DNA of 41,271 nucleotides from an uncultured Bdellovibrionales bacterium (GTDB lineage Bacteria > Bdellovibrionota > Bdellovibrionia > Bdellovibrionales > UBA1609), in the NCBI GenBank assembly GCA_937936325.1, contig CALGWV010000003.1, positions 1 through 41,271 of the forward strand, in the 5' to 3' direction. A program made the translations under genes and the position numbers. Every line of letters starts with the position of its first letter. The first letter of the stretch is position 1. Below are positions 30,457-37,664 of this stretch, one piece after another. A model generated the notes under the pieces. It saw only the letters and a list, made by a program, of their open reading frames with translations. It was not told where the DNA came from and did no database searches.

Positions 30457-31125
30457 ATGATTAAATTTTTAAAATCTTCTATAGGCAGCAAGCAAGTGAT
30501 TGGTCTTGCCGGCCTGGGTTTAGCCGTTTTTGTGTTCGCCCATATGGCTGGGAATATGCTAATTTTCGTCAGTCCCGAGGCTTACAATAAATATGGACAT
30601 GCCCTGACCAGCAATCCCTTAATTTATTTTGCTGAGGCAGGTTTGGTGGCCATATTTTTGGGGCACGTGATCTTAAGCCTTTGGCTCAGCTGGAAGAACT
30701 GGAAGAGTCGTGGCTCCCAAGCCTACACTTATAAAAAACCAAAAAAAACAAAAGCTTCTCTAGCCTCAAGAACTATGTGGGCCCAGGGCTTAGTCATTTT
30801 GGTTTTTATTATTTTGCATCTGCTCACATTTAAATTCGCTAACGATGGTTACTATGTTGAGTACGGTGGCGAGAAAATGAGAGATCTTCACCGCCTTATG
30901 ATTGAAGTCTTTCAACAGCCTCTTTATGTTGTGGGTTATACATTCTGCTTACTTCTTTTATGGGGGCATCTCAGCCATGGAGTCTCTTCAGTGTTTCAAT
31001 CTTTAGGGATGACAGGTGAAAGATCTGCTCCTGCGGTTAAAACGATTGGATGGATTTACGCACTTGTTGTGTGTTTAGGTTTTATCTCTCAGCCTCTTTA
31101 TGTTTACTTCTTTTACTCAGCTTAA
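30457..31125 (+). CDS. sdhC: Succinate dehydrogenase cytochrome b subunit
   Basis: This 222-residue subunit anchors the dehydrogenase in the membrane and carries b-type hemes. It has five hydrophobic helices and several conserved histidines in membrane segments (FAHMAGN near residue 29, LGHVILS, ILHLLTF, LLWGHLSHG). The single large anchor and pattern match the di-heme type found in Bacteroidetes, Firmicutes and delta/epsilon groups, so no sdhD is needed. AAGGATAAATTC precedes the ATG. It ends nine bases before sdhA. Confidence 0.93.
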   Translation: MIKFLKSSIGSKQVIGLAGLGLAVFVFAHMAGNMLIFVSPEAYNKYGHALTSNPLIYFAEAGLVAIFLGHVILSLWLSWKNWKSRGSQAYTYKKPKKTKASLASRTMWAQGLVILVFIILHLLTFKFANDGYYVEYGGEKMRDLHRLMIEVFQQPLYVVGYTFCLLLLWGHLSHGVSSVFQSLGMTGERSAPAVKTIGWIYALVVCLGFISQPLYVYFFYSA

Positions 31126-31134
31126 GGTGAAATT

Positions 31135-33054
31135 ATGAATTTTGATTCTCACTCTCCAACAGGTCCAATAGAAACTTCTTGGGAAAGACATAAATTTGAT
31201 ATCAATTTAGTGAACCCCTCCAACAAAAGAAAATTCGATATTATTGTTGTAGGGACAGGTTTAGCTGGAGCTTCAGCTTCGGCCACTTTGGCTGAACTAG
31301 GATACAAAGTAAAAAGTTTTACTTTTCATGATTCCCCTAGGCGTGCTCATTCGATTGCGGCCCAAGGTGGGATCAACGCAGCTAAGAATTATCAAAATGA
31401 TGGGGATTCAGTCAAAAGACTTTTTTACGATACAGTGAAAGGGGGAGACTTTAGATCTCGAGAATCCAATGTGTATCGTCTGTCGCAGGTTTCAAATGAA
31501 ATTATTGATCAGTGTGTGGCTCAAGGGGTTCCTTTTGCTAGAGACTACGGCGGTCTTTTAACAAATAGATCTTTTGGGGGAGCTCAGGTTTCTAGAACCT
31601 TCTATGCTCGAGGACAAACAGGGCAACAGCTTTTACTTGGAGCCTATTCCGCCATGATGAGACAGGTGGATAAGGGGAACATCGAACTCCACACTCGTCG
31701 TGAAATGATGGATCTCGTAACCATCAACGATCAAGCCCGAGGAATCACGGTTAGAAATCTTGTGACTGGCGAAATTGAATCCCATAGTGCCCACGCTGTT
31801 TTATTGGCAAGTGGTGGGTACGGAAATGTATTTTATTTATCTACGAATGCAAAAAATTCAAACTGTTCTGCTTTATGGAGAGCTCACCAAAAAGGGGCGG
31901 CTTTTGCCAATCCTTGTTACACCCAAATACATCCTACGTGTATTCCTGTTTCAGGGGAGTATCAATCCAAGCTGACTCTTATGTCCGAGTCCTTAAGAAA
32001 CGACGGACGTGTTTGGGTGCCAGAGGATAAGTCTGATAAAAGACATCCTAGTGAAATCAGTGATGCCCAAAGGGATTACTATTTAGAAAGAGTTTATCCA
32101 AGTTTTGGGAACCTGGCGCCACGTGATGTGGCCTCTAGACAGGCCAAATACAGAATTGATGAAGGCCGTGGTGTGGGTAAAACTGAAAAAGCCGTTTACC
32201 TGGATTTTCGCGATGCTATAACTAGGCTTGGTGAAAACACTATAAAAGAGCGTTATGGAAACCTCTTTCAAATGTACCAAAAGATCACTGGTGAGAATCC
32301 TTACAAACAACCTATGAGAATTTATCCGGCAGTCCATTACACGATGGGGGGCCTTTGGGTGGATTACAATTTACAAAGCACAATTCCTGGCCTTCATGTT
32401 TTAGGTGAAGCCAACTTTTCTGATCACGGAGCTAATCGCTTGGGAGCCTCAGCTTTGATGCAAGGTTTGGCCGATGGCTATTTTGTGATCCCAGCAACCC
32501 TGGGACATTATTTAGCCTCTCATAGTTTGCAGGATGTGAGCCTCTCCCATGAGGCCTTTAAGCAAAGCCAAGAGGATGTAAAACAGCGTCTTTCTGCCAT
32601 GCTCAGCAATAAAGGGAGCAAGACTGTGGATGAGTTTCATAGAGAGTTAGGGCTAATCATGTGGGAGCATGTAGGCATGTCTCGAAACGCAGAAGGTTTG
32701 AAAACCGCCATCACTCAAATACAAAAACTCCGTGAAGAGTATGAGCATCAGGTTTTGATACCAGGAGATGAAAACTTTAAAAATGATGAACTAGAAAAAG
32801 CAGCCCGAGTTCAGGACTTTTTAGAATTAGGTGAACTCATGGCTTTAGACGCCCTTAAGCGTGAAGAAAGCTGTGGGGGACACTTTAGAGAAGAGTATCA
32901 AACTGCTGATGGTGAAGCCCTGAGAAACGATGAAGAGTTTTGCCATTCCGCCGCCTTCACTTATGATAAAGGAACGGGTAAAGCCAGCTGGACACGGCAT
33001 GAAGAAAAACTTGAGTTTGAAAACGTAAAACTCAGTACAAGAAGTTATAAATAA
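31135..33054 (+). CDS. sdhA: Succinate dehydrogenase/fumarate reductase flavoprotein subunit
   Basis: SdhA oxidises succinate using covalently bound FAD. The Rossmann motif is GTGLAG (40-45), the FAD-linked histidine is H72 in [15 protein letters not shown]. Other family segments include [29 protein letters not shown] and [21 protein letters not shown]. The 639-residue length fits the Bacteroidetes/Bacillus-like long type. After it, 259 bases separate it from sdhB, unusually long for this operon and filled by a large palindrome. Confidence 0.97.
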
Positions 33055-33112
33055 AAAATATTTACAATATATCTTGTAAATAAAAAAAGTTTATAAAAAT
33101 TTTAGATTACTT

Positions 33113-33293
33113 GGTGCTGTTGAAGATTGGTAAGTGCAAACGAAAAAATCAGCTCACGAGAAATTAAAATGTACGCTACCAAAATTAAGAGAAGGCTTAG
33201 TGGTTACTAAGTCGAGCTTTATTTTGGTAGCGTACATTTTAATTTCGACTTGAGATGGTTTTTGCAGTGCACTTACCAATCTTCAATAGCACC
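33113..33293. repeat. Long foldback palindrome A in the sdhA-sdhB gap
   Basis: The outer arms 33113-33138 and 33268-33293 are inverted copies over 26 bases with one G/A difference that pairs as G-U in RNA. The inner arms 33160-33185 and 33221-33246 are perfect inverted copies over 26 bases. The centre is a hairpin CTTAGT-GGTT-ACTAAG (33196-33211). The segments between outer and inner arms pair only partly. The whole thing is a 181-base, nearly symmetric hairpin. It ends about six bases before the AAGGA ribosome-binding site of sdhB. Confidence 0.9.
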
Positions 33294-33313
33294 TAGAACA
33301 AGGAAACAAGCTC

Positions 33314-34060
33314 ATGAAAATTCATCTTAAAGTTTGGAGACAAAAAGGCCCTGAAGATAAAGGCTGTATGGAAGATCACACTCTTGATGACGTGAGTTCT
33401 GAAATGTCTTTTTTAGAAATGATGGACGTGCTCAATCAAAAACTGATCAAAGAAGGCCATGATCCTGTCACATTTGATCATGACTGCCGCGAAGGCATTT
33501 GCGGGTCTTGCTCTATGGTGATTAACGGAGATCCCCACGGTCCTCAAAAAGCCACCACCACATGTCAGCTTCACATGAGAGCTTTTAAAGATGGAGAAAC
33601 CATTTATGTGGAGCCTTGGAAGGCCAAGGCTTTTCCAGTGATTAAAGACCTTATGGTTGATAGATCGTCTTTTGATCGTATTCAGGCTGCCGGTGGATAT
33701 GTGTCTGTTTCCACTGGGAATGCCCCAGACGCCAATGCTATTGCTATCCCTAAGCTCACATCTGATGAGGCCTTTTTATCAGCAACCTGTATTGGTTGCG
33801 GCGCTTGTGTGGCCGCCTGTAAAAATGCGTCAGCGATGTTATTTGTGTCAGCCAAAGTTTCCCATTTAGATTTGTTACCCCAGGGTCAAGAAGAAACCCA
33901 TCTTCGTACCCAAAGAATGGTAGCCCAAATGGATGAAGAAGGTTTTGGAGCTTGCACAAATACGGGTTCGTGTTCAGCAGCCTGCCCAAAAGAGATCAAG
34001 TTGGAGAATATTGCTCGAATGAATCGTAGATATACGGGCTCTCAGATTAAATCCTCTTAA
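33314..34060 (+). CDS. sdhB: Succinate dehydrogenase/fumarate reductase iron-sulfur subunit
   Basis: SdhB carries electrons from FAD to quinone via three clusters. The 2Fe-2S cysteines are C58, C63, C66 and C84; a second set is C159, C162, C165 and C169 ([11 protein letters not shown]); a third is C214, C220 and C224. The 248 residues fit the family. The ATG is preceded by AAGGA nine bases upstream. The gene is flanked by two long palindromes, so its expression may differ from that of sdhC and sdhA. Confidence 0.96.
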
Positions 34061-34064
34061 TGAA

Positions 34065-34258
34065 TTAATTTTTTGAGTGCTATTTTTCAGAAATCTTAAG
34101 CCCAACCTCATAAAAAAAAACACTTTCGGTCGCAGAGCGTCTCCTGGAATGTACTATGGTTACATAGTGCACCCCACGATACGCACTGCCGCGACGTTTA
34201 AAATTTTTTTTATTAGGTTGGGCTTAAGATTTCTGAAAAATAGCACTCAAAAAATTAA
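34065..34258. repeat. Long foldback palindrome B downstream of sdhB
   Basis: The arms 34065-34108 and 34215-34258 are perfect inverted copies over 44 bases. A further 10-base pairing (34110-34119 with 34204-34213) follows one mismatch. Partial pairing continues inwards, and the centre is ACTATG-GTTA-CATAGT (34153-34168), extended by two pairs. It begins five bases after the sdhB stop codon. It lacks the T-run of a plain terminator after the right arm, though such a hairpin could still stop or stabilise a transcript. Confidence 0.9.
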
Positions 34259-34611
34259 AAAATCTAACCAATTCAATCTTCAATAAATAAGTCATTATTG
34301 AGACTCTGGACTATAGTCTCGCAAGCTGGGGAGTTAGACCTAGATATAGGAAATGGCTAAAAGCGACATTCTAAATTTAGTGGACTAATCCCCATCAATC
34401 CCCACAGTTTTCCACATATAAAATAAAATGAACTCCTAACTGCTTAAAAAATGTACAAATACAGCATTTAAATCATAAGTAAATATTATAAGCAGCATGT
34501 CACCTAGATCAGACTAAAGTCGTTAGTGGGGCTTATTTTTACAAGCTCTGGCTCATAAAAGCATAAATGAACTGGGCTTTCTATTCAGCTCAAATCTGTC
34601 GATAAGAAGCT
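34259..34611. other. Intergenic stretch before the transglycosylase-like gene
   Basis: I see no gene here on either strand. A small hairpin GAGACT (34300-34305) with AGTCTC (34315-34320) and one weak DnaA-like word at 34408-34416 are present. It should contain the promoter of the following gene, but I cannot point to a clear one. Confidence 0.4.
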
Positions 34612-36012
34612 ATGAGAAAACTTAAACTTTTAGTATTTTGCGTTATGACTTCAAGTTTTGTTTTTGAGGCCTATGCAGATGAGTGTTCATATATTATTAA
34701 TCCTTCATCAACAATCAAACGTTATCCGAATTCAAAAGGTGCTGGTCCATTATCTTTAGAGCAAGAAGATAAAAAGTTTCTAAAAAAATATGATTTAGAT
34801 GTAGATAATATTGCTGGCAGTCAGAGCAAGCTTATTGTTGGCAATTGCGACCCAACTTCTGATATTAATGGCTATATGCTTATCGACGACCAATTCAGTG
34901 AATTCACAAATTACTGTGGAAAGACCTCCAAAAAATACTCTTGCTATATAAAGCGCTCTTCAGTAACTCCAAAGGACAGTCTAGAATCTATCACTACAGC
35001 TCTTAATGGGCTAAACCCTGTACCTGCTGATTGTAATCCGAGTGATAAATCGACTTTTGCTAAAGGCCTCAATGACTTTACTGATGACCGATATAAAAAA
35101 TATAAATTTGCTTTAGACAATTTAACCCAGGTGTTGAATCGAAAACCTGGACAGCTGGAATGCCTCTTTGCTGTTGAATCAGGTTTTAAATCTAACCCAT
35201 CATCTTATACAGCAGTCAGAGGTTTTGCACAGATGACAGAGAAGGCGATGAAGGGTGTAAATGAGTTTCTTGTGCCAAATATTAATATTTCAGAAGAGTT
35301 AGATCAGGCAAAGAGAGCTAGAAATATAAAGACAAAAGCTAGATTGGAATGTAGGTCTGGTGCATATAATAGGGCTTTTAAAAAGCATGTGACTCACTTA
35401 AAGAATGCATTATTTTCCGAAGAGTTAGAAAAAAAACTTAATGAAGATGTTAAATTAGAACTTAAGGAGTTTCTAGATTGCCATATAAAAGGGGGTTATA
35501 CTAATAATAGAATTTACAAAAATATTGAAGAAAAAATCTCAATTGAAGCACAAGACACATGTGAAGATAAAACCAAGCATATGGCAAACCCATTTTATAA
35601 TATGTTCGTGGGATCAGTACATGATATGAGAAAACTAGAAGAGAGCTCTGAAGTTAATTTTAGCTTTTCACAATTAAAGTACGATTCAGCAAAGAATATG
35701 TGTGTGGAAAATAAAGGCTCAGTTCCATTCCCACCAGATGATAGGCTAAATTTACTTTCCAATGTGATTTACAATGCTGGCTATGCAGGGAAAAGTGGAC
35801 TCTCTGCAAAGTTTCAGAATATATTTCTTCAGGTTATTGATTCAGAAGATTCTAAGATGTCAGAGAGCAACATCAATTATTTCATAAGTAATTATGATAA
35901 GAAAAATAATAAGATTACCGATGAAATGAGAAGAAAAAAAGTGGGTGAAATTGAAAAACATGTCAAAAGGTTGAAAGCTTGTCATAGAGCTATTTCAGAT
36001 ACGGCTACTTAA
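34612..36012 (+). CDS. Secreted lytic transglycosylase-like protein
   Basis: A signal peptide (about residues 1-22, ending EAYA) exports the protein. The region LECLFAVESGFKSNPSSYT then AVRGFAQMTE matches the SLT transglycosylase pattern, with E189 as the candidate catalytic glutamate and GFAQ (204-207) in the usual place. A YNAG motif follows at 387-390, but some 180 residues later, far more than in typical SLT domains, so a helical insertion separates the two halves. The mature protein has eleven cysteines, suggesting disulfides. The likely role is cleavage of peptidoglycan. It stands alone, and its sequence appears more AT-rich than that of its neighbours. Confidence 0.68.
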   Translation: MRKLKLLVFCVMTSSFVFEAYADECSYIINPSSTIKRYPNSKGAGPLSLEQEDKKFLKKYDLDVDNIAGSQSKLIVGNCDPTSDINGYMLIDDQFSEFTNYCGKTSKKYSCYIKRSSVTPKDSLESITTALNGLNPVPADCNPSDKSTFAKGLNDFTDDRYKKYKFALDNLTQVLNRKPGQLECLFAVESGFKSNPSSYTAVRGFAQMTEKAMKGVNEFLVPNINISEELDQAKRARNIKTKARLECRSGAYNRAFKKHVTHLKNALFSEELEKKLNEDVKLELKEFLDCHIKGGYTNNRIYKNIEEKISIEAQDTCEDKTKHMANPFYNMFVGSVHDMRKLEESSEVNFSFSQLKYDSAKNMCVENKGSVPFPPDDRLNLLSNVIYNAGYAGKSGLSAKFQNIFLQVIDSEDSKMSESNINYFISNYDKKNNKITDEMRRKKVGEIEKHVKRLKACHRAISDTAT

Positions 36013-37600: not shown

Positions 37601-37664
37601 AACTTTGGTGCCAGTCCCTTTTGAGCATGCGCTGCATCCTCAAAAGGGGGCTGGCACCAAAGTT
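37601..37664. repeat. Hairpin repeat C between the FHA gene and rpsF
   Basis: Arms 37601-37625 and 37639-37664 pair as AACTTTGGTGCCAG with CTGGCACCAAAGTT, then a small bulge, then CCCTTTTGAG with CTCAAAAGGG. The loop itself can pair as ATGC with GCAT. It lies between divergent genes, so it is not a terminator of either. A short, strong palindrome of this size in an intergenic region resembles REP-type repeats. Confidence 0.8.

Follow-up and report, generated by a model that had tools for sequence, protein, structure and literature searches.

A probable palindromic MITE between sdhA and sdhB of an uncultured Bdellovibrionales bacterium, with a second, unrelated palindrome behind sdhB

Several small palindromic repeats with some of the properties of miniature inverted-repeat elements (MITEs) have been described in bacteria. 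RUP of Streptococcus pneumoniae is a 107-bp, non-coding, intergenic repeat with terminal inverted repeats (TIRs), TA ends and many copies, and it matches a resident insertion sequence, IS630-Spn1, according to the account in PMC2229807. ERIC/IRU and Correia/NEMIS are palindromic MITEs with TA ends that form long stem-loops once transcribed; RNase III cleaves Correia/NEMIS transcripts, and ERIC can make the mRNA upstream of it less stable, as those sources summarise them (PMC2229807, PMC10969869). YPAL/RU-2 of Yersinia is a palindromic repeat of ~168 bp described as having no TA ends and duplications of 3-26 bp (PMC2229807). The target of IS630-family elements is TA, which is duplicated on insertion (PMC2170065).

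The DNA analysed here, which we call the window, is a 41,271-nucleotide stretch of an uncultured Bdellovibrionales bacterium (GCA_937936325.1, contig CALGWV010000003.1). It carries a long palindrome between sdhA and sdhB that is very probably one copy of a palindromic MITE of ~185 bp, with 28-bp TIRs and TA ends, inserted between the two genes by a transposase acting in trans. The best reading is a new family (family 1) of an already known kind, the palindromic MITEs with TA targets such as RUP, ERIC and Correia. It shares RUP's general properties, but is ~185 bp long and no matching insertion sequence was found. It resembles ERIC/IRU and Correia/NEMIS in being a palindrome with TA ends that would form a long stem-loop in RNA, but differs in sequence. 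YPAL/RU-2 is of similar size, but differs at its ends and in its duplications. Insertion at TA is shared with IS630/Tc1-mariner elements, although no cognate transposase with matching TIRs was found in the element's own genome. The features of the region are as follows.

30457 to 31125, forward strand: sdhC-like gene (open reading frame; weak Sdh_cyt match)
31135 to 33054, forward strand: sdhA (open reading frame; Pfam FAD_binding_2 and Succ_DH_flav_C)
33111 to 33295, minus strand (its canonical orientation): family-1 palindromic element, whole copy (model R1, 200.8 bits; 35 relatives)
33111 to 33138, forward strand: terminal inverted repeat, sdhA side, 28 nt (alignment A1 and fold)
33160 to 33189, forward strand: inner arm, 97% complementary to 33217-33246 (inverted-repeat search)
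33194 to 33213, forward strand: apical hairpin (fold)
33217 to 33246, forward strand: inner arm, partner of 33160-33189 (inverted-repeat search)
33268 to 33295, minus strand: terminal inverted repeat, sdhB side, 28 nt (alignment A1 and fold)
33300 to 33304, forward strand: AAGGA, presumed sdhB ribosome-binding site (sequence; unpaired in the predicted fold)
33314 to 34060, forward strand: sdhB (open reading frame; Pfam Fer2_3 and Fer4 domains)
34065 to 34258, forward strand: family-2 palindrome, core 34113-34210 with copy-specific arms on both sides (inverted-repeat and model searches, fold)

The first-pass annotation had marked a near-perfect palindrome of 181 bases at 33113-33293, touching the sdhB ribosome-binding site. 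The palindrome is real, and the family model sets its bounds two bases further out on each side. Its outer arms (33110-33147 and 33259-33296, 38 nt) are 84% complementary, and its inner arms, of 30 nt, are nearly perfect. The predicted RNA fold of 33054-33330 has an energy of -115.9 kcal/mol, against a mean of -47.6 (sd 4.6) for shuffled sequences (z -14.75), none of 200 being as good. The wording 'near-perfect' was slightly generous: the subfamily consensus has 70 stem pairs, of which this copy keeps 64 as Watson-Crick pairs, and its interior contains mismatched blocks, which are conserved across the family. The right arm had been placed about six bases before the AAGGA, and this is about right, as the AAGGA begins at the fifth base past the arm, leaving 4 nt between. 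The copy lies in reverse orientation relative to the family's canonical strand, is overlapped by no open reading frame longer than 41 aa, and is the single match of the family-1 model in the window.

No U-tract follows the stem after 33295, so the hairpin as a whole does not qualify as an intrinsic terminator. The two terminator-like calls made in the region are at chance level (1.5 expected), a scan of 32950-34650 gave no promoter-like sites, and nothing in the window matched Rfam 15 at gathering score.

Searching the organism's own genome (2.06 Mb in 138 contigs) with the element, a check that the first-pass annotation had proposed, revealed a dispersed repeat. The window copy gave 39 BLAST matches, itself and reverse matches counted, another copy used as query gave 58, and a covariance model from 22 aligned copies gave 53, some copies being counted on both strands. 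The repeat, ~185 bp long, lies on both strands of the genome, and we analysed 35 distinct near-full-length places, leaving out shorter fragments (such as C7, C8, C35, C52, C77:7244, C95, C71:544 and C97) and deletion derivatives on C13, C31 and C83. The element ends in TAGGGGCTGTKGAAGATTCG and its complement; this TIR pattern, with up to three mismatches, matched 43 times in the genome and the reversed control not at all. TIR-bounded stretches measured 181-188 bp in 27 of 37 cases. The 28-bp outer stem is followed by imperfectly paired conserved blocks and then by the inner stem and apical hairpin, a structure taken from single folds, as RNAalifold on alignment A1 gave a poor consensus owing to gaps. 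The conserved blocks read CACTRCAAAAAnCATCTCAAGTCGAAA on one side and TTTCTCGTGAGCTGCTTTTCTCGTTTG on the other, and they lend the element a direction. Several internal-deletion derivatives have lost the interior and kept the ends, which fits recognition of the element by its ends.

The family has three features of MITEs: terminal inverted repeats, a short length with no transposase gene, and many dispersed copies. A matching autonomous element is typical of described MITEs and not required. The premise of the first-pass annotation, that long hairpins inside essential operons are rarely kept unless useful, fails for repeats of this kind, and the locus serves as a caution against reading long operon hairpins as designed.

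Within the bacterial family, 9 of 47 genomes and 7 of 26 genera have the same type of TIR, with a single control match. Three of these genomes (G021, G020 and G008) and another subfamily in the own genome have 182-bp elements or shorter derivatives with the same TIR and other interiors. This is a TIR superfamily in which ends and size are fixed and the interiors change, here uncovered in several genera of one bacterial family. In the own genome, a subfamily with the same type of TIR (TAGGGTGTGTTGACAATTCATCTAG) is ~182 bp long, with near-perfect ends and a different interior, and lies at the following places.

Own genome (G000), C34:20261-20442, C71:8166-8347, C77:34124-34305, C117:19886-20067, C8:5386-5570 and C73:10858-11038: subfamily with TAGGGTGTGTTGACAATTCATCTAG TIR

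A third repeat, CCCAGATCCGCGGAT..., lies beside or inside palindromic elements at four places in the own genome (L008, L027, L054 and L061). The flanks of two other loci, L010 and L042, carry short CTAGG...TGTC inverted repeats (CTAGGGTGTGTC...GACACGCCCTAG; CTAGGACCTGTCCCGAATTCG), which look like yet another small family.

TA stands at both ends of 23 of the 35 copies, the 12 lacking it at one or both ends being excluded from the target count. Among the 23, a pyrimidine precedes in 22 and a purine follows in 20, and the full YTAR context is found in 19, against a background of 30.7% (NTAN in the window; p 4e-7); when the set is widened to relatives, it is found in only 16 of 27. Judged by these flank statistics only, the family appears to insert at TA. 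Tenzen and Ohtsubo reportedly saw a preference for CTAG in 1991, with an IS630 composite transposon. Most copies are intergenic: 31 of the 35 overlap no open reading frame of at least 70 aa by more than 40 nt. Relative to the canonical strand, both neighbours are sense in 12 cases, antisense in 9, divergent in 8 and convergent in 4, with one neighbour missing in 2. The position between co-directional genes seen at sdhA-sdhB is a setting common to many other copies.

Comparison of the sdh locus with that of relatives dates the insertion to the window's own lineage. SdhB was matched in 43 of 45 genomes searched, and 29 relatives had loci that could be compared, the gap being taken from the sdhA stop to the base equivalent to the window's sdhB start. 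In all 29, sdhA lies directly 5' of sdhB across a gap of 10-42 nt that holds no palindrome; in the window the gap is 259 nt. The element is thus an insertion, one of the options that the first-pass annotation had offered, and comparison of this gap in related genomes had been among its proposed checks. Its word 'recent' is more doubtful, as the nearest copy is 85% identical and the others at most ~75%. Removing the element leaves 74 nt, so the spacer has also grown in other ways. The relatives belong to other genera, which puts a base-level empty site beyond their reach. Short gaps are the rule near the window's lineage, not everywhere: in more distant named loci (77 of 80) the gap varies, with a median of 27, an upper quartile of 95 and a few above 400. 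In the AT-rich remainder of the window's gap, at 33059-33082, lies a spacerless 12-nt inverted repeat.

We propose that the element was inserted between sdhA and sdhB in the window's lineage by a transposase supplied in trans. This enzyme was most likely of the TA-targeting Tc1/mariner-IS630 type, although none with matching ends was found. Gene order suggests that sdhC to sdhB are co-transcribed; the only domain support for the sdhC-like gene is a Sdh_cyt match below threshold. Transcripts crossing the element would gain a ~185-nt hairpin, with the sdhB ribosome-binding site left just outside it. Translation of sdhB may well be coupled to that of sdhA in the short-gap relatives; with sdhB now so far past the sdhA stop, such coupling would probably be lost here. 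By analogy with Correia/NEMIS and ERIC, cleavage by RNase III or altered mRNA stability might follow, and the element may affect sdh mRNA.

The autonomous partner typical of such elements did not appear in the 138-contig assembly, where four Pfam-family or pattern routes found none with matching ends; an assembly in so many pieces may have missed a multi-copy transposon. DDE_Tnp_1 matched in four places, two of IS5 type (both at contig edges), one of IS1634 type and one of IS4 type, and these elements were rejected as a source because they had other ends, or no end pair, in the stretches examined. The sole IS630-type (DDE_3) transposase gene found in the genome lies at 1408-2328 of L105, its 5' side cut by an IS1634-type insertion. 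With the other end lost, only the surviving end could be compared, and its best TIR match was 11 of 20, with background windows reaching 13, so this gene too was rejected. No larger TIR-bounded element emerged: the only pair above 200 bp with good ends was a stretch of 1021 bp in which two separate copies flank a 4HBT thioesterase-type gene. A phage or plasmid origin found no match (the viral-contig pattern gave 0), nor did an ERIC-like sequence of E. coli in 20,395 E. coli records. Rfam families gave only sub-threshold matches, for example TwoAYGGAY on the minus strand of L259 (38.3 bits against 43), and sub-threshold matches to plant microRNA models are taken as the scoring of long hairpins. 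Among the papers searched, none on Bdellovibrio turned up for miniature inverted-repeat, or for inverted repeat, repetitive or transposase.

The alternative that survives best is that a MITE insertion was later co-opted, the hairpin serving as a cleavage site (RNase III is one candidate) or shielding the 3' end of sdhA, and so setting the sdhA/sdhB ratio. Its place in what looks like an operon, with a ribosome-binding site 4 nt further on, its largely intact stem and the mRNA-processing precedents described for Correia and ERIC (PMC2229807, PMC10969869) speak for this, but the frequency of copies between co-directional genes, the lack of conservation of the insertion in relatives and the way in which young copies decay speak against it, and we consider it unlikely. 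Decay was followed in the young subfamily A, 16 of the 35 copies, each at least 83% identical to one reference. Stem changes in these were one-sided in 147 cases and compensated in 11 (permutation mean 6.5, maximum 15), G-U pairs were not in excess (36, with 47 A-C), and 116 of 1065 left-arm differences between copies (11%) were compensated. Because the changes are mostly one-sided and there is no G-U excess, pairing in young resident copies is not visibly under selection. A designed sdhA/sdhB switch is not supported, and evolution lends no weight to the two other roles that the first-pass annotation had offered, setting the sdhA/sdhB ratio and marking a processing site. With simple insertion as the preferred reading, what looked like a regulatory hairpin in an operon of core respiration becomes a natural MITE insertion with a measurable cost or benefit.

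A multi-copy structural RNA gene or riboregulator would explain the conserved mismatched internal blocks and the strong covariation across all subfamilies, where 22 aligned copies had 123 both-sided cells against 46.5 in shuffles. It is a very unlikely reading, however, given the one-sided decay within subfamily A, the absence of any Rfam match at gathering score, and TA/YTAR flanks and deletion derivatives that fit a transposon. The covariation means instead that the palindrome is important to the lineage of the element itself, and the pattern as a whole looks like neutral decay after insertion, with source copies that would keep their symmetry.

A REPIN/RAYT-type palindrome moved by a Y1 transposase would also be palindromic, intergenic and present in many copies, but Y1_Tnp gave no match in the own genome, while 5 of 14 control genomes scored, and long TA-bounded TIRs do not fit, so that this origin is scarcely credible. 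Palindromes trouble assembly, and four contigs (C7, C35, C52 and C86) end inside family-1 repeats, but ~35 distinct, diverged copies with unique flanks, arms that are diverged and not mirror copies, and related elements in other genomes make a read-through inverted duplication extremely improbable. The repeats do appear to break the assembly, since contigs end inside them.

A second palindrome begins four bases past the sdhB stop (-107.5 kcal/mol, z -16.5) and belongs to a family unrelated in sequence to the first, which is the more surprising object of the two. Its core model matched 48 times in the own genome, with both strands hit in some copies, and in 5 of 46 other genomes of the bacterial family. 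We examined 54 copies, 34 from the own genome and 20 from relatives. They lie on both strands and in mixed contexts, and two contigs (C43 and C96) end inside them. The family has a conserved core of ~98 bp, and nearly all copies have near-perfect arms of 35-60 bp; in arms aligned over at least 20 columns, 90 of 2150 paired columns were mismatched, 23 as G-U and 37 as A-C.

The core and the arms of this family evolve differently. Among 30 own-genome copies with arms of at least 30, cores were 65% identical between copies. Left arms were 31% identical, with 24% for shuffled ones, and agreement between the left and right arm of a single copy was 86%. Core identity between copies of one genome reaches 96%. 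The nine copies of G021 have cores that are 91% and arms that are 62% identical; comparison of the left arms gave 429 differences, 404 of which have a mirrored counterpart in the right arm. In G020, where six of the eight copies were used and two short-armed ones dropped, 197 of 209 were mirrored. The resulting 94% for these two genomes is an upper estimate, as the choice by arm length favours well-paired copies, and it contrasts strongly with the 11% of family 1.

The mirrored differences and the rarity of G-U pairs point to copying of one arm onto the other at the DNA level, which might occur by replication template switching or by fold-back synthesis at each transposition. Perfect stems are known to arise and be maintained through template switching during replication (PMC8794818). 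Such switching fits family 2 better than slow compensatory selection on RNA, which would be expected to leave a larger number of G-U pairs on one of the strands; rewriting of the arms at each transposition would fit too. Our literature search found no description of a dispersed bacterial hairpin of this kind. We suggest, tentatively and with more doubt than conviction, that sdhB lies between two unrelated palindrome families that evolve in opposite ways, the second being an undescribed kind of hairpin whose core is inherited and whose arms are rewritten as a matched pair. With arms that change in concert, family 2 would be a test bed for the upkeep of palindromes by template switching or by selection.

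Other explanations of family 2 found less purchase. We found no sign that the arms were captured from the host: when 10 of the 16 left arms were used jointly as queries, they returned nothing but the places they came from and one weak 29-nt match (E 0.003). Five exact 18-mer matches of the core in viruses, none of them a model match, are taken as chance. A 3'-UTR orientation rule was not convincing, 20 of 33 own-genome copies being sense to the upstream gene. Beyond both families, the window contains an inverted repeat at 37601-37664, with 22-nt arms that are 91% complementary and a loop of 20 nt.
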